The notes below the pieces were generated by a model. That model ran no database searches and was not told the origin of the DNA. It saw nothing but the letters and a program-made list of their open reading frames with translations. Below, in pieces: positions 4,780 to 33,565 of a DNA stretch of 64,000 bases. This DNA is from Onthophagus taurus. Taxonomy: Eukaryota > Arthropoda > Insecta > Coleoptera > Scarabaeidae. A program made the translations under genes and the position numbers. The stretch spans positions 28,773,001 through 28,837,000 of the forward strand of contig NC_091972.1 of NCBI RefSeq assembly GCF_036711975.1. Reading direction: 5' to 3'. Every line of letters begins with the position of its first letter. The first letter of the stretch is position 1.

Positions 4780-6773
4780 ATAGAATTGCTGCGGATCAGT
4801 TATTAATTAAATTTCAATTTATTATTCATTCTTACATATTTCCAACAGTCTCAAAAAGTTGTACCTACTTAAAAATATTAAATTAAAGAACAAGGCTGCA
4901 TGAACCACGTTGTACCACTTTTAGTTTTTTGTTTTAGTCCTTTTTGCATGAACTCTTTAAATCCCGCTCTTTACTCCCACCTCCCAACATCTCTTGACTA
5001 ATAATCTTTCTTTAGTTTAATTCATTTTTTCTTTAGACCGATAAAATGTTTGTGCTCATTTTGATGATCTCTCTCCTACTTACATTTGAATCCAATATCT
5101 TTGATGTCATCAGGGTTAGCGAAACGTGGCTCAAGTCGACCTTACCTTCTACTTTATACCCTCTTCCTAATTACTATTTGTTAAGAAATGATCGTATATT
5201 CTCACGTGGTGGGGGAGTGGCTTTGTTTATTCGAAACACTTTGCATGCTACCATCGTAGAAACCTCCCATGGAACGTTGCCGAATGTGGAGTTTTTGCTT
5301 GTAGGGCTGAAAACTGATTATAATAAAGTATTACTCGGTGTTTTTACTGCCCTTCTTCTATGAATTCTTCTATTTTGATCAGTTGGGGGAGATTTTGGAA
5401 AGGCATTCACTTATCTATGGGACTATCCTGTTAATGGGGGATTTTAATACCTGTCTGTTGAGAAATGATACTCGCGGTGAGAAACTTCAGTTCGTTACTT
5501 CTTCCTTAAACTTATCTATCTTACCCTCTCTGCCTACTCATCATCTTCCTACCTCACATTCTCTTCTTGTTCTTATTATTACATCCTGTCCAGACGGCAT
5601 ACTTACACATGGTCAGCTACCTGCCTTCCAATTTTCCATCCATGATTGATGACTAATCTATTGTGCTCTATGGGTGCAGCATCTGAGTCGTTCTCGGCGT
5701 GTTGGGACTTACCGTGATCTAGGGCGAGTTGAAACTAATTTGCTCTTGTCAGATGCACTGATGATTGATTGGCTTCCACTGTATCGTTTAGCAGATATTG
5801 ATGCTAAAGTGGACTACTTTAATTCTAAAATCATTAATCTCTATGATAAACATGCCCCACTTAGGCAACGCAGGATGAGACACCCGCCTGCACCTTGGCT
5901 GAGTGATGAGATAAGATCTCTTATGCGACTGCCTAACCGTGCAAAGTCGGTATTTAAACGTACACCCTCTAGTACTAATCGGGAAAATTATCGAATTTTA
6001 CGCAACCGCTGCGCTGTAATCATAAATGCAAGTATGCTAAGAGATCTTATTTCTACCAGAGGCTGTCTGGAGTCGCGCCGAGAACATTTTGGAGGACTAT
6101 GAGATCTCTCGGAGCGATTGACTCTTCGTCTGTCCAAATGTATCTTGATTGTGAGTCGATGGCAAACTTTTTTGCAGAGCCTCTCCTGAGCATCGATGAC
6201 GTAACTACGGCGGCTACAATTAATGAAATTCTTACCTCTCTTAAATCTTGCTCCTTATCTCTTACGCTTGTGACCGCGACCGAAGTAGGTGATGCTTAGA
6301 CTTATTCGAAGGCAGTGTATTGGGTCCGGTACTTTTTTCTTTGTTCGTTAATAGTGTTACTAATAATATCTCGTGTAATTATCATTGGTATGCTGACGAC
6401 CTCCAGATATATACTACTACAACTGTTGCTGAATTTCCGGAAGCTATTGTGCGACTTAGTAACGATCTACAGTGTATGATAAATGTTAATAATATCTAAT
6501 TATCACTACTTGCCATATTCAGTAAATATTATTCTTGATTGTTCTGTTGGGTCATTTGGCATTTGTGCGATAAAATGATCCGTTTGCTGATACTGCTCAT
6601 ACTGCTTATACTGTTTAAGTTTATCCATTGTTCGACTAACAATCGACCATGGGATTTTATGTATATATATTTGTTCTTATTTTTTTTTCTCATTGTTTTT
6701 TCTTGTTGTGTACCTTATGTAATTTTATATTCTTATTTGTGGCAATAAATGGTAAATAATAATAATAAAATAA
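4780..6773 (+). pseudogene. CR1/Jockey-group LINE remnant, endonuclease part
   Basis: Frames at 5046-5363, 5338-5649 and 5674-6299 together show an apurinic-type endonuclease (ETWLKS, LLRNDR, GGGVALFIR, MGDFN) and the linker to the reverse transcriptase. The stub near 6395 reads WYADDLQIY. Most of the reverse transcriptase is missing here but present in the second copy at 26-27 kb. The 3' end, near 6740-6773, is an AATAAATGGTAAATAATAAT-type tail. Frameshifts and the central deletion make it dead. Clade assignment is tentative. Confidence 0.75.
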
Positions 6774-7216
6774 CATTAGGTATTAACGTTATCATTAACA
6801 AAGATGTTAAAAGATGAACGAAATACATATAATGAAGTTGATAGTTCCGAGATAATCTTAAGATAGGGGCAAGTGCACTGAGAGCTTTAAGTGCAGTTAC
6901 GGAACGGTAATTTTAATTTTATTTCTTTACTAACAAATCAATTTTAATTGTTTTCGTAGATACCATTTCCTATTCTTTCGTTTAGAACTCGGATCCAAAT
7001 TATTTCTCATAATGTACTAGGTATAACAAGAATTGGGTTCTTGCTAAAGAAGCGATGATTTTTTATGCTTTCCCAGAGAAAAATCAACGTTCATGTTAGG
7101 GAATATTAATTGATATGGTAAATTATCTCATTTATTTACCATTGGTAAATGTTTAAGTAATTAGTTAATTCAAGATTATTTCAAATGTTCTTTTGCCGAT
7201 GCGATTATCAGTAAAA

Positions 7217-7333
7217 TGACTGGAACATCATTAAAACCAAGAGTTGATTCCAAAGAAATCACTTATAACCCGGAAGCGGTCGTTGAAATCCTTGATGAAA
7301 TGGCAGTAGCCTTCTTTACGGAGTTGTGGATAT
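7217..7333 (+). other. unidentified exon-like ORF
   Basis: An ATG opens a short frame (MTGTSLKPRVDSKEITYNPE, then AVVEILDEMAVAFFTEL) that stops soon after. The same frame occurs at 28283-28390 with one substitution. The composition is protein-like rather than simple repeat. I recognise no family. It sits just before copia-type sequence in both copies and may belong to the same lost gene as the pieces at 1569-2515. Confidence 0.3.
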
Positions 7334-7344
7334 AATAAACATCA

Positions 7345-8250
7345 TAATAAACAAGGAAAAAGGAAATGTATTGAACAAGGGTATTATATGGACTTAAAGA
7401 GGCACCAAAGTGTTGGGATGAACAATTTGATCAATGGATTCAAAAGATCAAAGTATGATTTGTGTCTATACCCAAAGAAAGACGTGTACACAAGAAACAA
7501 TAGAAAGGTTAAAACACGAATTTAAGGCAAAACATGTAGGAGAATTAAATAAGTTTTTGGGAATGGAAATAATAAGGGAAGAAAATACTTTGAGAAGAAT
7601 ATATTGATAAAATTTTGAAGAGATTTAATACGACAGACCGCAATGTTAAGAAAACGCCAATGGAAGTAGTAGCAACCATTTCAACAACCGACACAAAAAC
7701 TTTAAAAACTCCCAAAATGTCGTAATATTTACCAAAATTACCCTCATGATGTTTTCACTCCACTCGTCCTAAAATATATTAAAAAAAATCAAATGTTAAA
7801 CCGATCATCTGCAACCTCTCGTAAGGAATAGGAAAAGTAAAAAGAGTAGGAATCTCGAATTCCGTTACTGAATTAAAATTATTTAGTAGATATTAAAGTG
7901 ATTAAAAAAAAGTAATAGAATGTTCTTTTGTTTTTAATTTAGTTTATAGTAGATATTAGATTTTCGTTTATGTTCAATGTTACAAAATATGTATGTTTGA
8001 AAACAACAATATTTTATTTTAAAAGACGACAATATCAGAGTGAAAGGTTTTGAAATGAAATGTTTCTTTAATGTTGTTTTGTATTAAAATGTATCTTTTA
8101 GAGTAAAAGTTAGGTTAACTTTTATTAGAAGTAAGAACAAATAAAGCTAAGAGCAATGGGGAGGTTCCATCAAAACTCGTTACTAACCATAGTAGATAAG
8201 TAAATAGTATGAAAGGGAGCAAATCTCTAAATCATTAATTCACTTTACTC
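7345..8250 (+). pseudogene. Ty1/copia fragment
   Basis: Short frames around 7390-7690 match the reverse-transcriptase region that is clearer on the minus strand at 42990-43440 (QKTIERLKHEFKAKHVG..., DKILK.FNTTDRN, KKTPMEV). The stretch from about 7840 to 8250 is inverted relative to 42496-42950 and probably represents the terminal repeat or 3' region. It ends at TTTACTCTAA, the same point where the 42-kb copy ends. Deleted and frameshifted. Confidence 0.65.
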
Positions 8251-10003: not shown

Positions 10004-10786
10004 TCATTTTCTCTTTGGTAAGCTTCTCTTTTTCGTGGACGACGATTTCAATTGTGCAGCACCACCAGCGACTTTCTTGGCGGTTTTAGGTTTCGGCGCT
10101 TTCGGCTTTTTCGTCGGTCCCTTGGTAACTTTTTTAGCTTTTGATTGTGCTTTTCTAACCGTGGTGGTTTTTTTGACTGCGGCAGTAGTAGAGTTGGTTA
10201 CTTTCTTTTCTCCGACCGTTGGCGACTTTTTGGCTTTTACCGCAGCCTTCTTTTTGCTTTCAACAACAGGGGAACCGGATACCAGCGTTGTTTTTGCCTT
10301 CGCAGCTGAGGAGGATTTCTTCGTAGAGATAGCTCGAGCTTTGACCGTTTTAGATACGGCGGCGGCAGGTTTCTTTTTAAGGGAGGAAGTCTTTGCTCTG
10401 CCTGACTTTTTTGCAGAGGCCGATGCCACTTTAAACGATCCTGACGCACCTTTACCTTTAGTTTGGACAATAGCGCCTGCAGCGATGGCGGTCTTCAGGA
10501 ATTTCTTAATAAACGGAGCCATCTTCTCAGCGTCAACTTTGTAATTAGAAACCATGTACTTTTTAATAGCTTGAAGCGACGAACCGTTGCGTTCCTGAAG
10601 GGTCTTAATCGCATTATTCACCATTTCGGATGTAGGTGGATGGGTGGCTTTTGATCGCTGGCTTTTCTTTTTCTTCGTCGACGAATCGGAGGAGGAACCA
10701 CCGCCGGCAGCTTCGTTTTTTACGGGTGTAGTGTTTTCCGTTTCGGAAGATACGCGGATCTGTTCCGTTTGTTGTACATCCGTCAT
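10004..10786 (-). CDS. H1: linker histone H1
   Basis: 260 residues from the ATG at 10786; the frame is open further upstream but has no earlier ATG. It has the three-part linker histone plan. A short acidic/serine-rich N-terminus is followed by a winged-helix globular domain at about residues 45-115 ([20 protein letters not shown]... through [15 protein letters not shown]). A long lysine/alanine/proline tail with KKP, AKK and TKKP motifs ends in [10 protein letters not shown]1 binds linker DNA at the nucleosome dyad and compacts chromatin. It is intronless and followed by a histone stem-loop, so it is a replication-dependent copy. It is the only complete H1 here; two broken copies lie at 12.5 and 52.7 kb. 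Confidence 0.97.
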
Positions 10787-12150: not shown

Positions 12151-12513
12151 TCATTCATATGGAATTATGGCTGTCATCCATAATCCTATTCAACTCTCCT
12201 TTACATTCCGTCTCTCTCTTCTCCTCCCATTCGGACACTCTTGCTGCAGGGTGTTCTCACTCACCAGCTATCCATCCGTCTGTCCTTCATAAACCTATAG
12301 ACCGCACTACCCTCCTATAACACCTCCCTTGACCCTTACCACCTTACCCGCTCTCCTCAATCCTGCATCATCTCGAAACTCTCATCCCATTTCCACTATC
12401 CCACCCATTTTCTTCGCCCTCTTAAATACGTTCACAACGCCATTCAACTCTACACTTCTTCTCTTACTCATTATCAACCACTCTACCGTTGTCATATTGC
12501 CGTTACACACCAT
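12151..12513. other. pyrimidine-rich stretch, no gene
   Basis: C/T-rich on the plus strand (runs such as CCTCCCTTGACCCTTACCACC). Frames on both strands are short and unsupported. It could be an old retroelement 3' region, but I see no motif that shows this. Confidence 0.35.
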
Positions 12514-12745
12514 TAAAGGGCAAAACCACGGAGTCGTTAACGAAAAAGGCGAAGATTCAGAAATCGAAACCACCAACTCATCCATCGACATCAGAAATGG
12601 TTAACGGCGATATTAAGAATCTTGGTGAGTGCGGCGGCTCATCATTGCAAGCAATCAAAAAGTACATAAAAGATTCTTGAAAGCCGCCACCGTTTCGGGT
12701 GCTCTTATCCAGACCAAGGGCAAGGGAGCGTGGGCGAAATCCTCC
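12514..12745 (+). pseudogene. linker histone H1 pseudogene
   Basis: The plus strand encodes a diverged H1 N-terminus and globular domain. HPSTSEMVNGDIKNLGECGG and [10 protein letters not shown] match [27 protein letters not shown] of the intact gene. About 50 bp is then missing, with a frameshift. A second frame continues RFLKAATVSGALIQTKGKGA, matching [21 protein letters not shown]. The homology stops at the left arm of the foldback transposon, and I could not find the lysine-rich tail on the far side. It is dead and older than the other H1 copies. Confidence 0.85.
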
Positions 12746-12767
12746 ACTACAGACAACAAAGAAAAGA

Positions 12768-13806
12768 GAAATACGTAAAAAATTCATAACTTTCTTGAAA
12801 AATTTTGTGACACCACCAAACTCAGTCCAAAGATCGAAAATAAGGTTTCGAATAACATATCCGCGAGATTCGCGGAAATTCAGGGGATAAGGGGTCGAAA
12901 TCACCCCCGAAATACGTAAAAAATGCATAACTTTCTTGACAAATTTTGTGACACCACCAAACTCAGTCCAAAGATCGAAAATAAGGTTTCGAATAACAAA
13001 TCCGCGAGATTCGCGGAAATTCAGGGGATAAGGGGTCGAAATCACCCCCGAAATACGTAAAAAATTCATAACTTTCTTGACAAATTTTGTGACACCACCA
13101 AACTCAGTCCAAAGATCGAAAATAAGGTTTCGAATAACATATCCGCGAGATTCGCGGAAATTCAGGGGATAAGGGGTCGAAATCACCCCCGAAATACGTA
13201 AAAAATTCATAACTTTCTTGACAAATTTTGTGACACCACCAAACTCAGTCCAAAGATCGAAAATAAGGTTTCGAATAACAAATCCGCGAGATTCGCGGAA
13301 ATTCAGGGGATAAGGGGTCGAAATCACCCCCGAAATACGTAAAAAATTCATAACTTTCTTGAAAAATTTTGTGACACCACCAAACTCAGTCCAAAGATCG
13401 AAAATAAGGTTTCGAATAACATATCCGCGAGATTCGCGGAAATTCAGGGGATAAGGGGTCGAAATCACCCCCGAAATACGTAAAAAATGCATAACTTTCT
13501 TGACAAATTTTGTGACACCACCAAACTCAGTCCAAAGATCGAAAATAAGGTTTCGAATAACATATCCGCGAGATTCGCGGAAATTCAGGGGATAAGGGGT
13601 CGAAATCACCCCCGAAATACGTAAAAAATTCATAACTTTCTTGACAAATTTTGTGACACCACCAAACTCAGTCCAAAGATCGAAAATAAGGTTTCGAATA
13701 ACATATCCGCGAGATTCGCCGAAATTCAGGGGATAAGGGGTCGAAATCACCCCCGAAATACGTAGAAAATTCATAACTTTCTTGAAAAATTTTGTGACAC
13801 CACCAA
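12768..13806 (-). repeat. left satellite arm, 141-bp units x7.4
   Basis: Eight occurrences of GTGACACCACCAAA at exact 141-bp spacing (12808 to 13795). The units are inverted relative to the right arm and nearly identical to it. Each unit carries the palindrome TCCGCGA-N3-TCGCGGA and a G-rich/C-rich block (GGGGTCGAAATCACCCCC). On the minus strand the array is one open frame because 141 is 47 codons. Confidence 0.95.
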
Positions 13807-14898
13807 ATTTTTTTTCTACAAAAATCCCGTATAATGGCCGCATTTAAATATTTACGGCCTCATAACTTTCTTATATAATATGGAGGTAACTCTGGGACCA
13901 TATGAACCCTATAGGAAATTTTCCGCTCTTTCCAGCGAAAATACTACGATAATAATTAAAAAAAAATTGTTTTTAAACAATATGAGAACAGTTGACGAAA
14001 GTATAACCAAACAATCACTAAACCATATCTTCAAGGGAAACATCAATTGAAAATGAATTTTATGTAAAAGCACGTATTTTTGTCTCGCTTATACTCTTAA
14101 CACCTCCACGGTACGGTCCGTTGTCGTAGACGCTGACGCTGACGCGACGCGACAGGCGTCGGTCGGCTGTTGCAGTGGCGACGCCGACGTAACTGCCAAA
14201 ATGTCTTTTCGTTGTTTTTTAGTTTATTCACGTTTAGTCGACTGCAATCACTGGTAGAAGTTGTTTCGCTAGATCAACGTTTTATTTTTGGGCTAGTTCG
14301 ATTTCCTTGATATTTCTTGAGCTGTTTTTTCTTTGTTTTTTAATATTATTATTAATTAATATTGTCTTGCATTCAGAAGTTTGGGTTGTTTAGGTGTTTG
14401 TATATTTATAATCATTTCGTCTTTAGTTTGTATTATTATAATCATTTGAATAAGGTTTATTTTTATTTTTTTCCTCGGAAGGTATAATTTGGTGGTTGTT
14501 TCGTTATAGTAATTCTGTAATTTATTATTTTTGTTTGTTTTGCTCTTTGTTTTTCTGACCTTGTTGCTAGTTTAAGTGTTCGGTTTGTTTTGTTTTCATT
14601 TTATTCTTCCCTTTTTATTGTTAGTTTAAGTGTTCGATTTATTTTCTTTTTCATTTTACTTTCCTGTTTTCTTTGGGAGTTTTGCGACTGTTTTATTTCA
14701 TTGTAATATTGCTGCATAGATTTTCCTTGTGACTTCAGTAGGAAAAATAAAATTAACTTTTATTTTTTTTATATCATTTTAAGCGACAATTATAGTAGTT
14801 TATCTTTGTTTGTTTTCATTCCTTATTTTAAATACTTCCTGCTAGGAGAAGGCAATAAATAAGTTTCTTTGACAATTCGTTACCTTTATAATATTAAT
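13807..14898. other. left internal leader of the foldback transposon
   Basis: Non-coding. It holds a GC-rich block at about 14105-14195 built of GACGC/GACGCTGACG motifs, then a T-rich stretch (14200-14870) with an imperfect direct repeat (TAGTTTAAGTGTTCG at about 14570 and 14624). It is the likely promoter and 5' leader of the transposase gene. The promoter role is inferred from position. Confidence 0.45.
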
Positions 14899-17800
14899 AT
14901 GGACGGTCCAGGAAGGCCAGTTAAACAATGTAAGCAGTTAAGGTTACAGAAAATTGCAAATTTTCTTAGTGAAAATAATATTGATACGACTGTTTTAAGA
15001 GAATGCTCTGTTCGATCAGAAATATCACATCTATCAGATCTCTGTGTATATGTTGATATTAAAGATAATTTAAAAAATAGAAAGATGTTGCTAATGAACA
15101 TCAAAAGAGATGCTGATGAAATTGAAAAATACATTAATTCCTCTACTGACGTCGATAATTTCCTTGAGGTTGATGCTGTTGATGGCCACTTGATAGATAA
15201 TGCAAACACAGCAGTACATGAAGCAATGCAACATGCACGAGAAAAAATAGAAATATCCCAGAGTATATCCAAAAGAGATACTAATGAAATTGAAAAATAC
15301 ATCAATTCCTCTACTTACGTCGATGATTCCCTTGAGGTTGATGCTGTTGATGACCACTTGGTAGATAATGCAAACACAGTAGTACATGAAGCATTGCAAC
15401 ATGCACCAGAAAAGATAGAAATGCCCCAGACTATATCGAGTCCAATCAATAATTTAAAATTTAACTTTTTTAAAACATTTAAAATTAACCGCTATGTAGA
15501 TAACCACGACATATCCTATAAGTCCGAAGTTAGACATCAGTATTGGCGACAACAAATAAGTTTATATGGCATTTCTTGTCTTCTAATTTTCAAAGGAAGT
15601 CGTATAAACAAAAAAAAACAGCAAACTGCTTGTCAGATAGTCGAGTATGCAATTTGTAAACATACATCTTGTAGAGAATTTAAATTTATATACAATATTT
15701 TAGAGGATTTGATAGATGTAAGAATATGCTACAAAGGTCCTCACGTGGAAAATCACCACGAAGAGCATGCTTATCAACTGAAAGGTAGAGAAAGGGCGGA
15801 GGTAAAGAAAGAACTACTTTTTAGTTTGCCCAGCACCTGTCGCAGCGAAGAAATAAAAAAGGTTGATAGAGATTTAATTTATGAAGGTAATTGGCAAGGC
15901 TTGCGCTCGCTTTCCGTTTACCAAAAAGCTAGGTCGGAGGCAATGGGCGAACAGGACTTTCATTCGGATCCTTTACTAGATATACTACTAATGTCACTAA
16001 CTCAGGATGATGACAGTACATACGTTCAATTTCCTAGCGGAAAAACGTTGGTGTATTTATATTCCAAAGAGAACATTAAAACCTTAATTAAGAAAGGTAA
16101 AAAAATGATAGGGTACTTTGATGCGACAGGCTCCGTCGTTAGACCGACTGTGTATGATAGGGGTCGCAGGGTTCTATACTATGCGTTGGTTGTGAAAGTA
16201 AACGACATTGTGGTACCTATCGCTGAATTAATATCTTCACATCATGATTCGGCAACAATAATGGCTTTTATTTTGCATTTTAAGCATTTTATACGTACGA
16301 AATGCAAGAAAACACGGCCGATCTTTAACGTTGTTGTAACAGATTGGAGTTTTTCGCTTATGATGGCTATTTGTCAAGGGTTAAACGATGTCACTTTATA
16401 TACTTACCTCCAAATTTGTTATAAATATGTTACAAATAAGGACGACCATCGATTTTTTAGTTTAATAAAATTAAAACTATGTTGTGGACATTTCGTTAAA
16501 ATGATTTGCAACAGACTTTCTCGTACTAAGAAAAAACCGAATATAAGGGATGGAATTGTTAATGCAATAGCAGTATTAGTTCAATGTAGATCCTTGGAAG
16601 AGTTAATTATTCGATTTGAAAATGTCGCTTTTCTCTTATTAACATCGTCATATAATAACAACGTCAAAAATGCAATAGCACACCTATCGTCTAGTGACTA
16701 TGAAACCTACAATCATTTGTTATCTACAAGGCAAGATATTTCATGTGAATTGGACCTCGACATAGATGAAGAAGTTGTGAGAGGAGAATATACTAGCTCT
16801 CCTTTTTTTATTTGTTTTTTTAGAGTTTATGACAAGGTTTTAAAAGAGTTAGATGAAAGTGTAAGCTCAGCAACGGAACGCAACCCTTACAAACACGAGG
16901 AATTTTTTACGTATTTATTGAATTATGTAATGCCTTTCGCTCCAATGTGGTCCAACATACTTGAAAGTGATCGTTACAGTAATTCACTTGTGGAAACATG
17001 GTTTAAAATTGTCAAGCAAGAAATACTAGAAAACAAAACCAATTTGAAAGTAGGGCGATTTGTAAACCTGCTTAATTCACGAATTATAAGTAACATAAAA
17101 GCTATAGATTTAGAAATTGGTAAAAAGCCGAAGAGGAAAAAAATAACCTCAACAAAATCAGATGCACGACATGAAATTGATAACCCGGATGCTCAAGAAA
17201 CGTGGACAAAATCAAAAAAACGAAAACGGTATTTTCATAATGTTTACTTAACGGACAAAATTAACGTAAATGATGAAAATAACAAAATAGATGATGAAGT
17301 GGAAATGAATTTAGTCGTCCAACCAGAAAAGGTTGAAGAGGAGATCATAAGGGGGACCCAGCCAACCCAACCAGAAAAATGTTATGAGAGGGGGTTAACG
17401 TCAAACCAACCACAACCAGAACAAGTTGATGAGGGAGATATACAGTATTGTTCTTTGAACGGTATCCTTGATCAGCCAGATCAACGAGCCCTTTCAAATG
17501 GTCTGTTCTTTGATCATGATTTTTATATGTCCGCAGCTTTCCAAACTGATTTTATCTTAGGACAATATTCATATAATGGACAAACGATTTCATTAAGTAG
17601 CTCTGACTTTAGAACGTTAATATCAACCGAAAACATGGGTTGCAATAATCTGCAACCCATGAACCCATGGGTTGCAGATTATTGCATAGATTCTCTGGCA
17701 TTTACTTTTTTTAAAGACCGCGAAGACATTTATTACATCGACACAATATCCGTCCAAATTTTGCTTTCAGATCAGATAAAGAATCTGTCTAAATTTTTAC

Positions 17801-18186
17801 CTCTTACAAAATCACTTAAAGGAGTCCGTTTTATTCTGTTGCCCCACAATTGTAACAACAATCACTGGATATTAATTATATTAGATTTGACTACTAACTC
17901 TATTTGTATTTTGAATCCTGGTAAATATTATCTTATATCACACGAGGAAATTGTAAAAAAGGTTAAAAGACTATTTTCCACTAGAGACCGTCTATACCTA
18001 CACGAAGACAAACTAAATGCTAGGAAGTGGAAACTAACAACAATAGCATATCCTACCCAAGAGACTGAAGATTCAATCAATTGTGGAGTGTATGTTATAT
18101 GGTATATGATGGTTTTGCAAAAAAATGAAACACTGCAATATTTGTCAACATCATTATTACAAAGTAATTTTACTACTGTCATCTGA
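14899..18186 (+). CDS. MULE-like DDE transposase with C-terminal Ulp1 protease domain
   Basis: 1095 residues from the ATG at 14899 (MDGPGRPVKQCK...); an in-frame TTG upstream is less likely. The N-terminus has a short basic GRP start, then an imperfect duplication of about 60 residues (EIEKYINSSTDVD... and EIEKYINSSTYVD...). The middle looks like a MULE-type RNase H transposase: D408 in YFDATGSVVR, D482 in VVTDWSFSLM, a CCGHFVK motif near 527 and E699 in NSLVETWFKIVK. A lysine-rich hinge (about 735-775) and an acidic, glutamine-rich linker follow. The C-terminus (about 920-1080) is Ulp1/C48-like: H989 in NHWILIILDL, Q1054, and C1062 in INCGVYV. The usual catalytic Asp position reads Asn (N1006, ILNPGK). 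I infer DNA transposition with an added SUMO- or ubiquitin-type protease activity. Zisupton/KDZ-type elements are an alternative family. Confidence 0.75.
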   Translation: MDGPGRPVKQCKQLRLQKIANFLSENNIDTTVLRECSVRSEISHLSDLCVYVDIKDNLKNRKMLLMNIKRDADEIEKYINSSTDVDNFLEVDAVDGHLIDNANTAVHEAMQHAREKIEISQSISKRDTNEIEKYINSSTYVDDSLEVDAVDDHLVDNANTVVHEALQHAPEKIEMPQTISSPINNLKFNFFKTFKINRYVDNHDISYKSEVRHQYWRQQISLYGISCLLIFKGSRINKKKQQTACQIVEYAICKHTSCREFKFIYNILEDLIDVRICYKGPHVENHHEEHAYQLKGRERAEVKKELLFSLPSTCRSEEIKKVDRDLIYEGNWQGLRSLSVYQKARSEAMGEQDFHSDPLLDILLMSLTQDDDSTYVQFPSGKTLVYLYSKENIKTLIKKGKKMIGYFDATGSVVRPTVYDRGRRVLYYALVVKVNDIVVPIAELISSHHDSATIMAFILHFKHFIRTKCKKTRPIFNVVVTDWSFSLMMAICQGLNDVTLYTYLQICYKYVTNKDDHRFFSLIKLKLCCGHFVKMICNRLSRTKKKPNIRDGIVNAIAVLVQCRSLEELIIRFENVAFLLLTSSYNNNVKNAIAHLSSSDYETYNHLLSTRQDISCELDLDIDEEVVRGEYTSSPFFICFFRVYDKVLKELDESVSSATERNPYKHEEFFTYLLNYVMPFAPMWSNILESDRYSNSLVETWFKIVKQEILENKTNLKVGRFVNLLNSRIISNIKAIDLEIGKKPKRKKITSTKSDARHEIDNPDAQETWTKSKKRKRYFHNVYLTDKINVNDENNKIDDEVEMNLVVQPEKVEEEIIRGTQPTQPEKCYERGLTSNQPQPEQVDEGDIQYCSLNGILDQPDQRALSNGLFFDHDFYMSAAFQTDFILGQYSYNGQTISLSSSDFRTLISTENMGCNNLQPMNPWVADYCIDSLAFTFFKDREDIYYIDTISVQILLSDQIKNLSKFLPLTKSLKGVRFILLPHNCNNNHWILIILDLTTNSICILNPGKYYLISHEEIVKKVKRLFSTRDRLYLHEDKLNARKWKLTTIAYPTQETEDSINCGVYVIWYMMVLQKNETLQYLSTSLLQSNFTTVI
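17641..17686 (+). repeat. perfect 21-bp inverted repeat inside the transposase gene
   Basis: TGCAATAATCTGCAACCCATG at 17641-17661 is followed after 4 bases (AACC) by its exact complement at 17666-17686. It lies in the coding sequence at the start of the Ulp1 region. It would form a strong hairpin in the mRNA or in single-stranded DNA. Confidence 0.9.
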
Positions 18187-18190
18187 CGTT

Positions 18191-18796
18191 ATGTATGATA
18201 AATGTTTTAAATGTGGTATAGGATCACAGGAAAACTATGTAGGCTGCAACTTATGTAACAGATGGTTACATATAGATCGTTGCTCGAACATATCTAATCT
18301 AATTTCTATAGATACCATTAAACTTCGCAACTTTGTTTATAGTTGCCCATTATGTCAACACTATAAACCAGGTTTATTCAACACATCAAGTACAATTAAA
18401 AATGTTGCGTTGGATAATATGTCTCTAAAATATTTTGTGATTCATTACAAAAACGAGTTACAAGAAATATACAATACGAGGGACACAAACGATTTTTGTG
18501 AGCGGTACCGTTCTGTTAATAAAGAGTACCATTTGAAATGGGATATGTCAACTCCGTTTATATCATTTAGTGCGGCAGCCTATATATGTAGAAAGATAAT
18601 GTCAACAACCAATATACCAGACAAGGCATTTGTGAAATATGTTCTTCTGGGATTTCTGAATTTAAAAATTATACGTAAATATTACGGAATGAACGATGAA
18701 GCAAGCTTCTTTGAGCAATATAAAACGCTTTATGATATTACGGATAGGGATCATGTTTATCCAGATCACTACACATTAGACCAAATTCAGTTTTAA
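18191..18796 (+). CDS. PHD-finger protein of the foldback transposon
   Basis: 202 residues from the ATG at 18191. The same frame has an earlier ATG at 18125, overlapping the transposase gene by 62 bp. Residues 5-55 form a canonical Cys4-His-Cys3 PHD finger: C5-x2-C8, C19-x2-C22, H27, C31, C52-x2-C55, with W25 before the His. PHD fingers usually read histone H3 tails. The remaining 145 residues are charged and aromatic, with no family I recognise. It starts 5 bp after the transposase stop in a different frame, so it could be a separate protein, a frameshift extension or a spliced product. I infer a chromatin-binding accessory role. Confidence 0.7.
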   Translation: MYDKCFKCGIGSQENYVGCNLCNRWLHIDRCSNISNLISIDTIKLRNFVYSCPLCQHYKPGLFNTSSTIKNVALDNMSLKYFVIHYKNELQEIYNTRDTNDFCERYRSVNKEYHLKWDMSTPFISFSAAAYICRKIMSTTNIPDKAFVKYVLLGFLNLKIIRKYYGMNDEASFFEQYKTLYDITDRDHVYPDHYTLDQIQF

Positions 18797-18889
18797 GTAC
18801 AATAATTATTTATATATACAATTATTATTATACACCCTTTATCAACATAATTTCCGCGCGTCTCATAGATAATATATGTTATTGGAATT

Positions 18890-21866
18890 CGATCTCTGGG
18901 CTGAGTTTGGTGGTGTCACAAAATTTGTCAAGAAAGTTATGAATTTTTTACGTATTTCGGGGGTGATTTCGACCCCTTATCCCCTGAATTTCCGCGAATC
19001 TCGCGGATATGTTATTCGAAACCTTATTTTCGATCTTTGGACTGAGTTTGGTGGTGTCACAAAATTTTTCAAGAAAGTTATGAATTTTTTACGTATTTCG
19101 GGGGTGATTTCGACCCCTTATCCCCTGAATTTCCGCGAATCTCGCGGATATGTTATTCGAAACCTTATTTTCGATCTTTGGACTGAGTTTGGTGGTGTCA
19201 CAAAATTTTTCAAGAAAGTTATGAATTTTTTACGTATTTCGGGGGTGATTTCGACCCCTTATCCCCTGAATTTCCGCGAATCTCGCGGATATGTTATTCG
19301 AAACCTTATTTTCGATCTTTGGACTGAGTTTGGTGGTGTCACAAAATTTTTCAAGAAAGTTATGAATTTTTTACGTATTTCGGGGGTGATTTCGACCCCT
19401 TATCCCCTGAATTTCCGCGAATCTCGTGCATATGTTTTTCGAAACCTTATTTTCGATCTTTGGACTGAGTTTGGTGGTGTCACAAAATTTGTCAAGAAAG
19501 TTATGAATTTTTTACGTATTTCGGGGGTGATTTCGACCCCTTATCCCCTGAATTTCCGCGAATCTCGCGGATATGTTATTCGAAACCTTATTTTCGATCT
19601 TTGGACTGAGTTTGGTGGTGTCACAAAATTTTTCAAGAAAGTTATGAATTTTTTACGTATTTCGGGGGTGATTTCAACCCCTTATCCCCTGAATTTCCGC
19701 GAATCTCGCGGATATGTTATTCGAAACCTTATTTTCGATCTTTGGACTGAGTTTGGTGGTGTCACAAAATTTTTCAAAAAAGTTATGAATTTTTTACGTA
19801 TTTCGGGGGTGATTTCGACCCCTTATCCCCTGAATTTCCGCGAATCTCGTGGATATGTTTTTCGAAACCTTATTTTCGATCTTTGGACTGAGTTTGGTGG
19901 TGTCACAAAATTTGTCAAGAAAGTTATGAATTTTTTACGTATTTCGGGGGTGATTTCGACCCCTTATCCCCTGAATTTCCGCGAATCTCGCGGATATGTT
20001 ATTCGAAACCTTATTTTCGATCTTTGGACTGAGTTTGGTGGTGTCACAAAATTTTTCAAGAAAGTTATGAATTTTTTACGTATTTCGGGGGTGATTTCAA
20101 CCCCTTATCCCCTGAATTTCCGCGAATCTCGCGGATATGTTATTCGAAACCTTATTTTCGATCTTTGGACTGAGTTTGGTGGTGTCACAAAATTTTTCAA
20201 AAAAGTTATGAATTTTTTACGTATTTCGGGGGTGATTTCGACCCCTTATCCCTTGAATTTCCGCGAATCTCGTGGATATGTTTTTCGAAACCTTATTTTC
20301 GATCTTTGGACTGAGTTTGGTGGTGTCACAAAATTTTTCAAGAAAGTTATGAATTTTTTACGTATTTCGGGGGTGATTTCGACCCCTTATCCCCTGAATT
20401 TCCGCGAATCTCGCGGATATGTTATTCGAAACCTTATTTTCGATCTTTGGACTGAGTTTGGTGGTGTCACAAAATTTTTCAAGAAAGTTATGAATTTTTT
20501 ACGTATTTCGGGGGTGATTTCGACCCCTTATCCCCTGAATTTCCGCGAATCTCGCGGATATGTTATTCGAAACCTTATTTTCGATCTTTGGACTGAGTTT
20601 GGTGGTGTCACAAAATTTTTCAAGAAAGTTATGAATTTTTTACGTATTTCGGGGGCGATTTCGACCCCTTATCCCCTGAATTTCCGCGAATCTCGCAGAT
20701 ATGTTATTCGAAACCTTATTTTCGATCTTTGGACAGAGTTTGGTGGTGTCACAAAATTTGTCAAGAAAGTTATGAATTTTTTACGTATTTCGGGGGTGAT
20801 TTCGACTCCTTATCCCCTGAATTTCGGCGAATCTCGCGGATATGTTATTCGAAACCTTATTTTCGATCTTTGGACTGAGTTTGGTGGTGTCACAAAATTT
20901 GTCAAGAAAGTTATGAATTTTTTACGTATTTCGGGGGTGATTTCGACCCCTTATCCCCTGAATTTCCGCGAATCTCGCGGATATGTTATTCGAAACCTTA
21001 TTTTCGATCTTTGGACAGAGTTTGGTGGTGTCACAAAATTTGTCAAGAAAGTTATGAATTTTTTACGTATTTCGGGGGTGATTTCGACTCCTTATCCCCT
21101 GAATTTCGGCGAATCTCGCGGATATGTTATTCGAAACCTTATTTTCGATCTTTGGACTGAGTTTGGTGGTGTCACAAAATTTGTCAAGAAAGTTATGAAT
21201 TTTTTACGTATTTCGGGGGTGATTTCGACCCCTTATCCCCTGAATTTCCGCGAATCTCGCGGATATGTTATTCGAAACCTTATTTTCGATCTTTGGACTG
21301 AGTTTGGTGGTGTCACAAAATTTTTCAAGAAAGTTATGAATTTTTTACGTATTTCGGGGGCGATTTCGACCCCTTATCCCCTGAATTTCCGCGAATCTCG
21401 CAGATATGTTATTCGAAACCTTATTTTCGATCTTTGGACAGAGTTTGGTGGTGTCACAAAATTTGTCAAGAAAGTTATGAATTTTTTACGTATTTCGGGG
21501 GTGATTTCGACTCCTTATCCCCTGAATTTCGGCGAATCTCGCGGATATGTTATTCGAAACCTTATTTTCGATCTTTGGACTGAGTTTGGTGGTGTCACAA
21601 AATTTGTCAAGAAAGTTATGAATTTTTTACGTATTTCGGGGGTGATTTCGACCCCTTATCCCCTGAATTTCCGCGAATCTCGCGGATATGTTATTCGAAA
21701 CCTTATTTTCGATCTTTGGACTAAGTTTGGTGGTGTCACAAAATTTGTCAAGAAAGTTATGAATTTTTTACGTATTTCGGGGGTGATTTCGACCCTTTAT
21801 CCCCTGAATTTCCGGGTGGTGCTTAGATATGTTATTCGAAATAGTGATTTTGATATTTGGGGTTGA
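18890..21866 (+). repeat. right satellite arm, 141-bp units x20.6
   Basis: Starts of TTTGGTGGTGTCAC fall every 141 bp from 18905 to 21725 with no indel. The units fall into subtypes that recur as blocks. Units 5-7 (19467-19889) are repeated as 8-10 (19890-20312), sharing TTTCAACCCC, TTCAAAAAAG and CGTGGATATGTTTTT. Units 13-15 (20595-21017) recur as 18-20 (21300-21722). That is a higher-order repeat of 423 bp. The last unit decays from about 21812. The array is one stop-free frame of 996 codons because 141 is a multiple of three. I do not call it a gene. Confidence 0.95.
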
Positions 21867-22124
21867 CTTAATGGATCATCAAGCTTTTTCAATGCAAATT
21901 GGAGTTTTTCACATAATGAAAGGGTGATTTTTATGTAATAATAATGAATTTTACTTGAAAGTTTTAGAGGGGTTATCTATTTTACTCTCTTTAATGCTAA
22001 TTTTGATGTTTTTTGGTTATTATCACTAATAAATACGAAATTATAGATAGAGTACACTATTTGTTTGGTCCGCTGTAAAAATGTGAATTTCGTTTCTGAA
22101 TCCGTTGCTAACTTCAACGACATT
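21867..22124. other. unassigned spacer
   Basis: AT-rich sequence between the right satellite arm and the second copy of the duplicated block. No open frame, repeat or motif is recognised. It could hold the outer end of the foldback element. Confidence 0.4.
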
Positions 22125-22494
22125 TTAACAGGAACGGTTGTGGTTGGAAATGGTTTTATATTTATAAAGCGTAAATAGTTTGCGTAAATGGTTTATTTTG
22201 TTTGAATAATTTTATTTCAATAATAATATTTATTAAAGTAAATAAAGAAAAAAATATAGTTGATATAGAGCACAAGAAAATATAAATGGATGTAAATTGA
22301 AATGAATCAAAACTAATGAAAAAAGTAATGTTTTTCTTTTAAGAAAAAAAGATAATGAAAATACAAGGTTCTAAGACGATAACAAAGAAAAATAAAGTAA
22401 AATAATGTCGGGTGGCGAACAAGTGACTCACACAACAGACAAGTTTGAAATCCTTCGGAGATTTCGTGTATTTTAAATTTAAACGAAAATGGGA

Positions 22495-23400
22495 AGCTCG
22501 CCATTTGAAGAATTTTCGTTAGATTTGATTTTTACTAGAATTATTGCTCCACAATTAAGCGAGTATGACAGCAAGTAGGTATGATTGAAGAATTCTGTTG
22601 AGATTGGTAATTTTATTTATTTACGGTTGGTATCATTGGTTTGATTTGTGTTGTCGCAAATGGATGACAGTTTTCTTTGTACAGGCTGTTCTACATAATT
22701 CAATTTTTCAAACATTTTTTTTTAATCCTTTATTTTTTATTTAGAACCTCCAAGAGTATTTATAACTCCAAACACCGGAGAGGGAGGAATTCATTTTCTT
22801 TAAACCGCGTTTATTATTGTTTAATAAAATGGATCCAAATTGTGTTGAGGTGAGTACGCTTCTTACTGCGTAATTAATTACGTTGGATTTTATTACGTTT
22901 ATTTAAAAAGAATTGGCCACTTCCATAATTGAGACGAGTGAATATGAATTGGACGAGAAAGCAGCTACTGCTGAAATGATACAGTTCTTTGCTGATGTAC
23001 ATACATATAATGTATGATAAAGAAATGTTGAGGTAATAATTTGTTTCTTTTAAATTATAACTCCATCTAATTATTTATTTTTAAAAGGATTCTGGTTATT
23101 TATTGATTAAGATGGATCTAGAAGGTGACCTCAACTCTCAAATATTTTCAAGCGATCATTATCCAACTCAACTGGAGAGTAAGATTGCCATATTCCAAGT
23201 TTTTATCATAAAGGTTTAATATAAATATATTTTAGGAATGTTTTTGTTGTTTTAGTAGAGTACATTATCAAGGGATGAAACCGTATTATAAGTTATATGC
23301 AACAACTGTATGTATTTTTTATGTATTTCTGGAGATGATGCAATGAAGAAAGGATTTTTATCCAGTTTTGCTTATTGTTAAGTATTTAATTATCAAGCGG
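22495..23400 (+). other. exon-like fragments, second copy
   Basis: Counterparts of the pieces at 1569-2515: MGSSPFEEFSLDLI... near 22495, then ATGGATCCAAATTGTGTTGAG followed by GTGAGT near 22828. The last piece near 23258 is frameshifted relative to copy 1. Unrecognised. Decay in this copy argues against present function. Confidence 0.3.
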
Positions 23401-24017
23401 TATGTATTAAATATATTTTTTTTTTAATTTTTATTTTTCAGTATTCAATTTCTATAATGTTCTTATCTAGAATTTTCGATCAAGTAATTTTTTTATATCA
23501 ATCCATGATTTAAATCAAAAGAAATGAAAATCAAAATCAGGCAACTAAAAACTAAGATAAACAAAAACAATACATACCTATTATAACAAAAACAAAAAAA
23601 AACAATGCATAGGAATTGCAAAGTTTATATAAAAATTCTAATTTGCTGGCTTTTTTCATTTCCAATTTGTTGCTACTGAAGCTAAGCAGTACACAGCACA
23701 TAAAAATTGTTTTAAAGTTGGGAGAAGTTTCTCCCTATCAGGCCATTGCAAAGTAGTAACATTGGATATAACTTCCTCAGAAAGCAAGATGATTCTCTTC
23801 TATCGTCAATTTATATTTTGTTATATGCTAAATTTATAAATGATGAATGTCTTTCTTCAAGTACACTTCCTAATTCCTTTCACATTTTTACAGCATCAGA
23901 TAGGGAAGCACTTTTTTGCAATTTGTCAAGTCCCATGGATTTTGGCTTTAATAGTAGGTATTTTTTGGTAGGTATATCGTAGGATAAATTTCGTTTTTAT
24001 TTTCTTCACTTACTTTG

Positions 24018-25254
24018 AACATAAATAATGCGTCGGATATGTTCAAACTACTAAATCGCATGAATTTTATACTCTAACTATAAAAGTTAACTAATTATTT
24101 CAATTTTTATGTAAAAATTGGGCTTTTTTCTAAATTGAAAATTTTTCTAGTTCAATTTATGATATGTAACCATAGAAACCATAAAAGTTACAACTTATAT
24201 TGGTGTGATTAAGTCTTTTCATGCGATGTTAACCGTGAAAGAGAGAATTTATTTAGTACTGTGCTATGGTACTAGTGAATCATGTTTTCGTGTAGTTATA
24301 CAAAAATGCCAGCAAAAATATCCGGACACAAAAATATCTCATGTTGAGGCTCGCAAACTTATGAAAAAATTTTTGGAAACGGGTTCTGTATTATCCATAA
24401 AGAAGCAGACAAAGAGACTAAATGAGGAAGACGCTGCTTTTCAGATAGCTTTTCAACAAATGACATTGTTTCTTCCCAGCATTGTCGTTATTGGAGCGAC
24501 GTAAATCCAATTATCCTTAAATTTTATACGGTCAATGTACTTTCAGCAAGACAGTTGCCCAGCTTACCATTCACACATTGTGCCAAATGGTTAAATTTAC
24601 AATTTAGTCAAAAATGGATTGAACGAAATGGTCCTATTTGATGACCAGCACGTAGTCCTGATCTTACAATTATGGATTTTTATTTTTGGGGACGATTTAA
24701 ACAAATTGTTTACAGTGAACCATTACAAGATGATGTAGAACTATTAAAACTAAGAATAATTAAAGCGATAGAATCTCTACCACTGGCGGAAATTCGTACT
24801 TCTTATAAAGAATTTAGAACTCGTCTTCAAATGTGTGTCGAATTGGGAAGGAATTTGTTTGAATGAGGATTTGTTCACTTACAAATAAATAATATTTATT
24901 ACTTACATAGTGTGTTATTACATTAATTTACATTTAAAATATTTTATTCAATTAGCCATATTTTAATTTGATTTGTCCGTATATTTTTCACTAACATAAG
25001 TTGTAACTTTTATTTTATTTTATTGGTTTCTATGGTTGCATATCGTAAATTGAACTTGAAAAATTTTTAATTTAGTAAAACTATAATTTTTACATAAAAA
25101 TGGGAATAATTAGTTAACTTCTATAGTTAGAATATAAAGTTCGTGCGATTTAGTGGTTTGAACATATCCGACGCATTATGTATGCTGAGATAAGTTTGAA
25201 AAATCAGTAACAAATTTTTTTTTCCTCTTTGTAACTCGATCCGGGGACATACTG
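24018..25254 (+). mobile_element. Tc1/mariner-type transposon, left end lost
   Basis: Same family as 3144-4227. The right inverted repeat is complete and ends GGGGACATACTG at 25254, followed by TA. On the left about 150 bp including the terminus is missing: homology begins at ACATAAATAATGCGTCGG near 24018. It keeps the middle of the transposase gene that the other copy has lost. Confidence 0.85.
24205..24866 (+). pseudogene. mariner-type (DDE_3) transposase
   Basis: An N-terminal helix-turn-helix segment (24205-24504) is followed in shifted frames by FQQDSCPAYHSHIV near 24541, the second catalytic Asp region, and by DLTIMDFYFWGRFKQIVYSE (24660-24866) from the C-terminus of the DDE domain. 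Frameshifts near 24504 and 24590 and a stop near 24640 inactivate it. Confidence 0.8.
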
Positions 25255-25817
25255 TATAATATGTATTTGCAGGCAATCCAGTATACTGTTAATTTTGATT
25301 AAAGAAAGGAAATTATAATTTTTTCTCGCCCTGGTTTAAAGTAACATTTAAGGTGATCCAGAATGCGTTTAAACACTTTCTGATAATAATTTTAGAATTT
25401 CATAGAAACGTCTAGGTAACTACGGAAAAGTTTTGTCTGGAGATTTTTTGACATCTGAGATCATTTCTGAGGTAAGAATTTCTTAATAATTCTTAAAAAT
25501 ATCTGGATATTCGAGGAAAAGCATTGATAAGTTAGTTTTCGGAGACTTCCTGACATCTATTAGTGTCGTCTGGGAATCGCTTAAAAGTATCTTCTCAGAA
25601 ATCGTTTAGACACTTTTTGGCATATTTGGGTGCCTGAAAATCTACGTTAAATTCACGAAAAGTCCTTTTAATGTGACGTTTTAACGATGGGCAATGATGA
25701 CGAACATTGCGTCAAATCTGGCGGTGCGGCGTCAGACTTTTGTTTTTGGGGCTTTTTGAAATCTTTTCTCGCAATAAACCTTGTCTTTCTCAAGGCCTAC
25801 AACTTTTATCATTTTCA

Positions 25818-27832
25818 TCGAGTCGCGCCGAGAACATTTTGGAGGACTATGAGGTCTCTCGGAGCGATTGACTCTCCGTCTGTCCAGATGGATCTTGATT
25901 GTGAGTCGATGGCAAACTTTTTTTGCAGAGCCTCCCCTGATCATCGATGACGTAACTAAGGCGGCAACAATTAATGAAATTTTTACCTCTCTTAAATCTT
26001 GCTCCTTATCTCTTACGCTTGTGACCGCTTATTCGAAGTCCTCTTGCGTGGGTTCTGATGGTATCGGTCCCAACCTTCTTCTTCCTATCCTGGATATAGT
26101 GCTTCCTCCCTTAACTCATATCTTCAACTTTTCTCTTGAGCGACCTTTATTTCCCTCTGTCTGGAAGGTTGCTCATGTCGTTCCCATACCCAAATCCAAG
26201 TCCTCTTTATGTAACACTGATTTCCGTCCGATTTAAATTTTATCCGTACTATCAACAGCTCTTGAGCGCTTAGTTTATTTACAGGTTCAAGGATTTCTAG
26301 AGAGGTTTAACTTACACAATGAGTTGCAATCGGGTTTTCGCAGTGGGCATAGTACAACTACTGCCCTCATTAAAGTTACTGATGATATTAGATATGTCTG
26401 CGACAACAGATGTGTTACTGTGCTGGTACTGCTCGATTTCAGCAAGGCTTTTGATTATGTCGACCACAGCCTTCTTTTGGCGTCTCTTTCTGCCTACGGA
26501 TTCACTCCCTCCTGTGTTTCTTGGTTTCAATCTTACCTTTCCCATCGCTCCTTGTGCGTACGCGCTAACTCTTCAATTTCTTCTGCTTGTGCAATCAAAT
26601 GTGGTGTTCCTCAGGGCAGTGTATTGGGTCCGTTACTTTTTTCTTTGTTCGTTAATAGTGTTACTAGTTATATCTCGTGTAATTATCATTTGTATGCTGA
26701 CGACCTCCAGATATATACTACTACAACTGTTGCTGAATTTCCGGAAGCTATTGTGCGACTTAATAACGATCTATCTAAGGTCTTGAACTGGTCTCGGAGA
26801 TACGGACTTAAGTTGAACTCAGTTAAAACGCAATCTATTGTGTTTGGAACTCGTCAATTACTTGGTAAGATTAATCTGTCTACCTGCAGTGATCTGATGC
26901 TGGATGGAAATGTCATACGGTTTTCTGACACAGTTAAAAATCTTGCAGTCCTTATGGATTCTGCATTGTCTTGGAAACCGCAAATTCAAAAATGTTATGC
27001 TTGCTCTTACTCTTTAAAAAGACTGGTCGGTTTATCCCGACCTCTCAGTGATTCTTCTGAGTAAATTCATATCCGGTTCATATTTGACCTAAATAGATTT
27101 GAGCATGTAACGCCGTATCGCAATCACATTCAGATGTTAACCTGTGAGGGACGTAGATCCTTTCGTTTATTAATCATTTTATTTAAAATCCTTCATAACT
27201 GCACCCCAAAGTACTTATCAGATAGGTTCCAGCAATTATCAACTCATGAGCTTGCTACTCGTTCACGTTCTGATACTATTCTTACATTTCCTGTTCATAG
27301 CACTGAAATTTATCACAGACCATGCCTTCTGAAATTCGTAATATTTCTAACATTGCTAATTTTAGACATGTTTTAAAGAGCCACTTGCTTGCCCTTCAAC
27401 TGGCTGTTTCCTGATTCTTTGTTCTTTGGCAACTTGTTGGCAACTGATATCCGGCAGATTCTTTTGGCCTCTTTTGCCGCTCTCTCCCTCTTTTCGTGTC
27501 TTTTCTTTGTTTTTCTCTTTTTCTTGCTTAATCTTATTTGGTGATAAATGTTAATAATATCTAATTATCACTACTTGCCATATTCAGTAAATATTATTTT
27601 TGTTTGTTCTGTTGGGTCATTTGGCAAAGATCGCTTGTGCGATAAAATGATCCGTTTGCTGATACGGCTCATACTGCTTATACTGTTTAAGTTTATCCAT
27701 TGCTCGACTAACCATCGACAATGGGATTTTATGTATATTTTTGTTCTTATTATTTTTTCTTCTTGTGTACCTTATGTAATTTTATATTCTTATTTGTGGC
27801 AATAAATGGTAAATAATAATAATAAAATAACA
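25818..27832 (+). pseudogene. CR1/Jockey-group LINE remnant, reverse transcriptase part
   Basis: One frame runs 25868-27064 with a single internal stop at 26234. It carries SDGIGPNLLLPI, VAHVVPIPKS, FRPI, LQSGFRSGHSTTTAL, LLDFSKAFDYVDHSLLL, CGVPQGSVLGPLLFSLFVNS and HLYADDLQIY, the ordered motifs of a LINE reverse transcriptase. C-terminal pieces follow at 27134-27376. The tail near 27800-27832 is AATAAATGGTAAATAATAAT. With copy 1 supplying the endonuclease part, the two copies are complementary remnants of one parent. Confidence 0.85.
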
Positions 27833-28282
27833 TTAGGTACATATTATTAACGTTATCATTAACAAAGATGTTAAAAGATGAACGAAATACATTTAACGAA
27901 GTTGATAGTTCCGAGATAATCTTAAGATAGGGGCAAGTGCATTGAGACCTTTATGTGCAGCTACGGAACGGTAATTTTAATTTTATTTTTTTACTAACAA
28001 ATCAATTTTAATTGTTTTCATAGATACTATTTCCTATTCTTTCGTTTAGAACTCGGATCCAAATTATTTCTCATAATGTACTAGGTATAACAAGAATGGT
28101 GTTCTTGCTAAAGAAGCGGGGAGATTTTTTATACTTTCCCAGAGAAAAATCAACGTTCATGTTGAAGGAATATTAATTGATATGGTAAATTATCGCATTT
28201 ATTTACCATTGGTAAATGTTTAACTAATTAGTTAATTCAAGATTATTTCAAATGTTGTTTTGCCGATGCGATTATCAGTAAA

Positions 28283-28390
28283 ATGACTGTAACATCATTA
28301 AAACCAAGAGTTGATTCCAAAGAAATCACTTATAACCCGGAAGCGGTCGTTGAAATCCTTGATGAAATGGCAGTAGCCTTCTTTACGGAG
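28283..28390 (+). other. unidentified exon-like ORF, second copy
   Basis: The same frame as at 7217 (MTVTSLKPRVDSKEITYNPE..., one residue different). It then runs directly into copia sequence. Confidence 0.3.
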
Positions 28391-28397
28391 ATGTGGA

Positions 28398-29465
28398 TAT
28401 ATGTGAAGGTTTTGTTAGTAAAGCTAATAAAACCTAGAGAAAAGTTGGGAAAATTGGTTGGAAATTGGTTGGAAAAAGGACAAAATAATAATGTCGCGAG
28501 ATGTTTTATGCGATGAAACATGTATATAACATAAAGATAATGTCGATCAACAGAAATAACGGACAAAATTGAAAGTGATAAAAATGAAGTGAAAGAGAAT
28601 AAAAAATTACATGAACAGAGTGAAGAACAGATGAAAAACAGTGAAGACGAGGAACGAGAAGAACAATATAAAAACATACAAGATCTGGAACAACAAATAA
28701 ACCAACTTATCAACTCACGAAGAACAAGAAACATGGACAATAGTAAATATACCGAGCGAGACCAAAGCAATAGATACAAGATGGATATTTACTACAAAGA
28801 AAGACGGTACAAAAAAGGCACGGCTAGTTGGCAATTAGGTTTTCAACTCAAAAATGAGGAATGGAATTCAATATACGCCCCAGTATCCAGGATAAGATCA
28901 ACGATAAGAATGTTTATGGTTCATGCGATTAATAATAATTGGCTAATAAAACAATTAGAGCATTTTTAAATGGTAAACTAACTGACAATGTATTTATAAA
29001 GATACCAGAAGGAATAAACAAGGAAAAATGAAATGTATTGAACAAGGGTATTATATGGACTTAAAGAGGCACCAAAGTGTTGGGATGAACAATTTGATCA
29101 ATGGATTCAAAAGATCAAAGTATGATTTGTGTCTATACACAAAGAAAGATGTGTACACAAAAAACAATAGAAAGGTTAAAACACGAATTTAAGGCAAAAC
29201 ATGTAGGAGAATTCAATAAGTTTTTGGGAATGGAAATAATAAGGGAAGAAAATACTTTGAGAAGAATATATTGATAAAATTTTGAAGAGATTTAATACAA
29301 CAGACCGCAAGGTTAAGAAAACGCCAATGGAAGTAAGATATCAATTTGAGTAAGATATCACTCCACTCGTCCCAAAATATATGAAAACAAATCAAATGTT
29401 AAACCGATCATCTGCGACCTCTCATAAGGAATAGGAAAAGTAAAAGGAGTAGGAATCTCGAATTT
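28398..29465 (+). pseudogene. Ty1/copia fragment
   Basis: The frame 28589-28969 ends LKNEEWNSIYAPVSRIRSTI and RMFMVHAINNNWLIKQLEHF. This is the start of the copia reverse transcriptase, where the family reads YAPVARI...W.I.QLDV..AFL. Later fragments match 42990-43440. Frameshifts throughout. Confidence 0.7.
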
Positions 29466-33409: not shown

Positions 33410-33565
33410 AATGAACGGTGAACTTGACGGGCCTCTTGAGGTTCCTGGAATCTTCCTTAACCCTCTTCATCGGATCTAAAACAGACGGAAAATATATTAG
33501 TTAATATTCGCTAAATTAGCGATATCGGAAGTGGATTTGGAAAGGACAGTCGGGTTCCCGGATCG

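Follow-up and report, generated by a model that had tools for sequence, protein, structure and literature searches.

The 64,000-nucleotide stretch of the dung beetle Onthophagus taurus genome analysed here (contig NC_091972.1, positions 28,773,001 to 28,837,000; hereafter the window, in whose own numbering all positions are given) probably contains one copy, with a probably damaged left end, of a Rehavkus-like DNA transposon related to the Mutator-like elements (MULEs), located in a histone gene cluster. This element is best read as a transposon of the foldback type with genes for an Ulp1-like protease and a PHD protein. This reading is supported by the layout of the copy, in which the interval between the inverted arrays of a single 141-bp satellite unit is precisely where two long coding frames are found. 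The candidate assignment to the MULEs is based on motifs recognized by eye and on the likeness to Rehavkus. The O. taurus element is Rehavkus-like in build, as judged from published descriptions, and is not filed here as a proven member of that group.

Satellite Arms

Tandem arrays were called across the window with Tandem Repeats Finder (TRF). The left arm (12768-13807, minus strand) has a period of 141 and comprises 7.4 copies with 98% matches. The right arm (18834-21860, plus strand) has a TRF core at 18888-21814 that comprises 20.8 copies with 97% matches, and degenerate unit sequence at both sides extends it inward to about 18834 and, through an outermost degenerate unit, to about 21860. 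The two arrays are inverted relative to each other and are 98% complementary across 1040 nt. A first-pass annotation made from the sequence had described inverted 141-bp arrays around two rightward open genes, and this description is borne out by TRF, by the complementarity of the arms and by the open reading frames (ORFs). The span given there for the element (12768-21840) is right at its left limit and slightly short at its right limit, as unit sequence reaches about 21860. The 141-bp unit was not found elsewhere within the window at E 1e-3. The left arm ends mid-unit on its outer side, and the degenerate last unit of the right arm has no partner on the left flank. The left end of the copy has probably been lost, and the damaged copy may therefore have become immobile.

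The units of the two arms are closely related. Comparison of six full left units with 20 right units (120 pairs) gives a mean identity of 98.2%, and a single unit type is common to five right and two left units. Taken together, the shared unit type and the between-arm identity fit an exchange of sequence among units. The right array also contains multi-unit repeats, with three-unit and five-unit blocks at 19452-20297 and 20580-21707. These blocks are a sign of stepwise block amplification.

The unit length corresponds to 47 codons, and the unit is stop-free in one of its six frames, which explains the 996-aa frame (plus strand, 18876-21866) and the 421-aa frame (minus strand, 12578-13843) that run over the arrays. 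Among 26 units, 7 synonymous and 9 non-synonymous variants were counted, out of 98 and 308 possible changes, respectively (17 further changes would create stops). These variants are too few to claim selection or to argue for translation of the arrays. When the array frame was searched as a protein (208 aa), 14 Pfam families were matched, only two of which had stretches that pass; these matches were judged to be a repeat artefact. One of the 14, MGS (E 9e-6), is above its cut-off overall while no single stretch passes.

Coding Region

ORF1 (14899-18186, plus strand, ATG at 14899) encodes 1095 aa and is the candidate transposase of the element. The longest stop-to-stop frame in 13808-18834 has 1107 codons, compared to a maximum of 166 in 300 first-order Markov simulations. 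The C-terminal part of the protein (residues 961-1075) matches Pfam Peptidase_C48, the Ulp1 catalytic domain, with E=3.6e-5 and 24.1 bits (cut-off 20.7), confirming the Ulp1-like domain proposed in the first-pass annotation. The residue set of Ulp1 and Peptidase C48 enzymes (His, Asp/Asn, Gln, Cys) is present in the predicted domain. H989 is found in an HW motif and C1062 in an NCG motif, while N1006 (in LNPG) would stand in for the usual Asp as the third catalytic residue. Q1054 is located eight residues ahead of C1062, whereas six is the usual spacing, and its assignment as the catalytic Gln would need a small insertion. A sequence search of the PDB with the Ulp1 region gave six weak matches, the best of which (E 0.29) is a membrane thiol protease, and an AlphaFold model of this region made without relatives has a predicted local distance difference test (pLDDT) score of 33.6.

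The putative catalytic residues of the transposase are D408 (within YFDATG), D482 (within VVTDWS) and E699, and a CxxH motif is located at residues 528-531. All of the residues named earlier for this protein (D408, D482, E699, H989, Q1054, and C1062) are found at the positions given for them. We take the arrangement of D408, D482, CxxH and E699 to fit the MULE pattern, in which CxxH after the second Asp would be a MULE-type feature. The region around these residues, referred to as the DDE region, may adopt an RNase H-type transposase fold (residues 380-720), as suggested by the motifs. An in-frame 168-bp tandem duplication is also present within ORF1 (15102-15437; TRF, 2.0 copies, 91% matches).

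ORF2 (18191-18796, plus strand) encodes 201 aa if translation begins at the ATG at 18191, or 223 aa if it begins at an upstream ATG (18125), and has an N-terminal PHD-like finger. It had been reported as a 202-aa protein with a full PHD finger. The second frame is indeed present, and the larger number would fit a count that starts with a GTT codon at 18188. All eight ligands of the Cys4-His-Cys3 set are present and in order, but the finger is atypical. The match to Pfam PHD (E=0.0068, 16.9 bits) falls under the curated cut-off of 24, and the spacing between the His and the Cys that follows it is three residues instead of the usual two. The ORF2 sequence gave 15 weak matches in the PDB, the best of which (E 0.093) is PHD3 of MLL1.

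The frame of ORF2 is +1 relative to ORF1 and overlaps the ORF1 end (18107-18200), and both frames are fully open. The ORF1 stop codon is located at 18184-18186 and the next ATG, at 18191, follows 4 nt on. A ribosome that slipped by +1 at the stop codon of ORF1 (ATC-TGA-C) would continue directly in the frame of the PHD finger.

Sequence searches for relatives covered collections of viral contigs, genome contigs and plasmids, which are not insect genomes, such that absence there means little. Among the viral contigs, ORF1 gave 15 pattern matches, the DDE region 6, the Ulp1 region 7 and ORF2 5, none of which is a relative. The genome contigs likewise contained no relatives among 238 (ORF1) and 23 (DDE region) pattern matches. 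There was no match to the DDE region in the plasmids at E up to 10, and a single exact 55-base pattern taken from the arm unit had no match in the viral contigs. Sequence searches of the PDB with ORF1 and the DDE region also gave no match, while searches of NCBIfam gave one irrelevant match for ORF1 (E 0.1) and none for the two other queries.

Comparison with Known Elements

Rehavkus elements have served as the outgroup to the MULEs. Their listed hosts are arthropods and annelids, and their listed features are a single ORF, a PHD finger, a minisatellite and duplications of 9 bp (PMC6446971). Repbase, whose Rehavkus entries include Rehavkus-1_TC and Rehavkus-1_HR, moved the group into MuDR on the basis of weak but significant similarity (PMC4455052). 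Rehavkus-1_TC from Tribolium castaneum is 9.5 kb long and has arrays of a 164-bp satellite in its inverted termini, mostly with 5 and 8 monomers (PMC10218199). Rehavkus and the O. taurus element thus have in common a PHD finger, minisatellite arrays in inverted termini, a length of about 9 kb and an arthropod host. The O. taurus element differs from Rehavkus-1_TC in the length of the unit (141 bp compared to 164 bp) and in the number of units (7.4 and 20.8 compared to mostly 5 and 8). The available portions of the Rehavkus literature contain no statement that Rehavkus encodes Ulp1. Proven membership is withheld because the copy lacks the 9-bp duplication and the single ORF, and because the likeness is drawn from descriptions and not from Rehavkus sequence.

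Ulp1 domains are also known from other transposons. Kaonashi is a plant Mutator element with Ulp1. Ulp1 is further reported for animal Mutator elements, from hydra and lancelet, and for those of plants, including Arabidopsis, maize, rice and melon (PMC2836005). These elements resemble the O. taurus element in joining a transposase-type protein to an Ulp1 domain, while satellite-built arms, which the O. taurus element has, are not mentioned for them in the available part of that paper (PMC2836005). The transposase of Ginger1-9_HM bears a C-terminal Ulp1 and PHD, and a figure legend in the same source describes an alignment of the Ulp1 and PHD domains from Ginger1 and Mutator transposases (PMC2836005). 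Ginger1-9_HM differs in having a transposase of the Gypsy-integrase type, a length of 3.8 kb, 120-bp terminal inverted repeats (TIRs) and a 4-bp target-site duplication (TSD) (PMC2836005).

The foldback elements FB4/FB-NOF, Tetris, Tm1 and Galileo likewise have long inverted arms with internal repeats. TSDs of 8-10 bp are described for FB4, Tetris and Tm1, and a satellite was seeded by the arms of Tetris (PMC8277862, PMC4079207, PMC3169594). The FB4 and Tetris copies described are non-autonomous, whereas Tm1-A codes for a 496-aa protein of the Phantom type and Galileo belongs to the P superfamily (PMC8277862, PMC4079207, PMC3169594). Neither Ulp1 nor PHD is named in the text on Tm1 (PMC3169594), and Ulp1 is not named in that on Tetris (PMC4079207). 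The first-pass annotation had stated that no described element carries the set seen here. For most of the set this does not stand, given the PHD and minisatellite of Rehavkus, the Ulp1 of Mutator elements and the Ulp1 and PHD of Ginger1-9_HM; it holds only insofar as no statement of Ulp1 in Rehavkus was found in the portions of the literature noted above.

Assignment and Alternative Explanations

Several results weigh against assignment of the O. taurus element as a Rehavkus-like, MULE-related transposon. The ends of the copy lack the expected signatures. The first-pass annotation had suggested looking for 9-bp duplications, and the duplication typical of Rehavkus is absent from this copy. No TSD of 8-11 bp (at most one mismatch) was found between 12740-12790 on the left and 21790-21960 on the right, and no exact 9- or 10-mer duplication in the wider flanks; as a baseline, at least one 9-mer match occurs in 51 of 100 random region pairs. 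As the left end is possibly lost, the absence of the 9-bp duplication says little about the family. There is also no TIR outside the arrays, where the outer flanks score 18.0 compared to a shuffle mean of 17.6. Rehavkus is listed with TIRs of 26-400 bp; the inverted sequence of the O. taurus element consists of the arrays themselves, is more than 1 kb long and includes no separate terminal repeat. Furthermore, the PHD finger of the O. taurus element is encoded in a second (+1) frame, in contrast to the single ORF of Rehavkus.

The results on the transposase core speak neither for nor against a MULE-related DDE enzyme. ORF1 has no match to Pfam MULE at E up to 10. The AlphaFold model of the DDE region, made without relatives, has a pLDDT of 39.9 and a predicted template modeling (pTM) score of 0.34. 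With this low-confidence model as the query, Foldseek listed 107 matches when E was allowed up to 10 and none at 0.001; there are no transposase names among the best 50 of the 107, which at a pLDDT of 39.9 is no evidence either way. Comparison of residues 380-720 with nine bacterial IS256 rows by hhalign gave a probability of 1.1% and a score of 21.7, compared to at most 19.3 in 10 shuffles. The best local stretch of this comparison is the CxxH region, and for residues 396-545 an equally high score is reached by 10 of 200 shuffles. When aligned at a low threshold, D408 is matched with the first Asp of IS256, and D482 is not matched with the second. Of the insect foldback lineage with a MULE transposase, Ulp1 and PHD proposed in the first-pass annotation, the foldback type and the two accessory domains stand as the best reading, while the MULE part is not confirmed by Pfam, fold prediction or profile comparison.

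These results leave the DDE family of ORF1 inferred rather than proven, which lends some support to the idea that its transposase belongs to another superfamily, such as Ginger1, in which Ulp1 and once both Ulp1 and PHD occur at the C-terminus, with the satellite arms having arisen independently. This explanation is quite unlikely. The CxxH motif after the second Asp is a feature of the MULE type, and ORF1 has no match at E up to 10 to any integrase-type Pfam family, as would be expected for a Gypsy-integrase-like core. The combination of Ulp1 and PHD in Ginger1-9_HM, and the presence of Ulp1 in seven further Ginger1 families of the 16 tabulated, are in its favor; however, Ginger1 proteins are about 500-800 aa long and have TIRs of 40-270 bp, compared to 1095 aa and arms of more than 1 kb here (PMC2836005). 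The TSD of Ginger1 is mostly CCGG (PMC2836005), and neither apparent end of the O. taurus copy, uncertain as these ends are, is flanked by CCGG. It is consistent with an independent origin of the arms that foldback arms arise in unrelated superfamilies, as in Galileo of the P superfamily (PMC3169594, PMC4079207). It is improbable that there is no single transposon at all, and that a gene pair (a host gene or the remnant of another element) came by chance to lie between inverted blocks of a free 141-bp satellite. While the lack of a duplication at the ends and the mid-unit end of the left block would suit such an origin, the two blocks are oppositely oriented on either side of the coding part, have unit types in common and are absent elsewhere in the 64 kb, and the same layout has been described for Rehavkus-1_TC (PMC10218199).

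The relationship between the two frames allows a further alternative, in which the element is a working two-product element that expresses ORF1 and ORF2 from one message, either via +1 frameshifting at the stop codon of ORF1 or via re-initiation at the ATG 4 nt later, and ORF2 was not split off by decay. The fully open state of both frames, their overlap in the +1 register and the short stop-to-ATG gap speak for this possibility, which is nonetheless unlikely. Decay of a once continuous frame is the more likely source of the +1 offset, and it is favored because Rehavkus is listed with one ORF. Highly improbable is the more far-reaching proposal of a Rehavkus-like lineage that joins a transposase, a deSUMOylase-like protease and a histone reader and makes two products per message, namely a shorter transposase-Ulp1 protein and the PHD part, the latter through +1 frameshifting at the stop codon of ORF1 or through re-initiation. 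If the two-product reading were true, the ratio of the products would set activity or targeting, and translation might extend to the stop-free 47-codon frame of the arm unit.

Genomic Setting

A non-coding stretch (13808-14898) separates the left arm from ORF1, as judged from the sequence and the ORF list. Outside the element, a broken histone H1-like fragment (12507-12730, plus strand) abuts the left arm; this pseudogene fragment was identified by tblastn with the H1 of the window itself (E=6e-17) and consists of two pieces in different frames. The surrounding genes are what we take to be histone genes: H1 (10004-10786), H2B (32944 and 40921), H2A (40212), H4 (49026) and H3 (51042). Their predicted proteins look insect-like. 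Long paralogous spacers are located on either side of the element (1182-7668 and 22125-29335) and are mostly 90-98% identical, with gaps; they are a sign of segmental duplication in the histone cluster. They provide no empty site, as the paralogy between the right flank (from 22125) and 1182-3121, at 92% identity, stops short of the insertion point. The histone cluster also contains four related putative non-LTR retrotransposon stretches (31131-32374, 33412-36762, 49422-50763, and 60646-64000), three of which are 99.6-99.7% identical where aligned and therefore recent.

Proposed Mechanism and Significance

The reading of the element as a Rehavkus-like transposon suggests a mechanism in which a DDE transposase from the first frame would bind a sequence repeated in the satellite arms, comparable to what has been discussed for Galileo, in which additional binding sites for the transposase are located in the repeats of the arms (PMC4079207). 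The transposase would then excise the element and reinsert it elsewhere with a 9-bp staggered cut (cut and paste). During transposition, the Ulp1-like domain could strip SUMO or a similar modifier off repair or silencing proteins, and a SUMO-related role of the Ulp1 domain has been suggested for Ginger1 and Mutator (PMC2836005). The PHD finger may bind histone tails or other chromatin partners, thereby steering or protecting the complex, while the arms would grow, shrink and become uniform through recombination among units.

The O. taurus element seems to belong to a kind of insect transposon that has been described before but little studied, and its value is mainly that of a well-preserved example. 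Apart from two questions, its biology would be that of an ordinary transposon. As a 9-kb copy with both frames open, it would be useful for determining whether Ulp1 and PHD are regular components of the lineage, and for tracing the growth of satellite arms on a transposon and the way in which such arms may give rise to free satellites.

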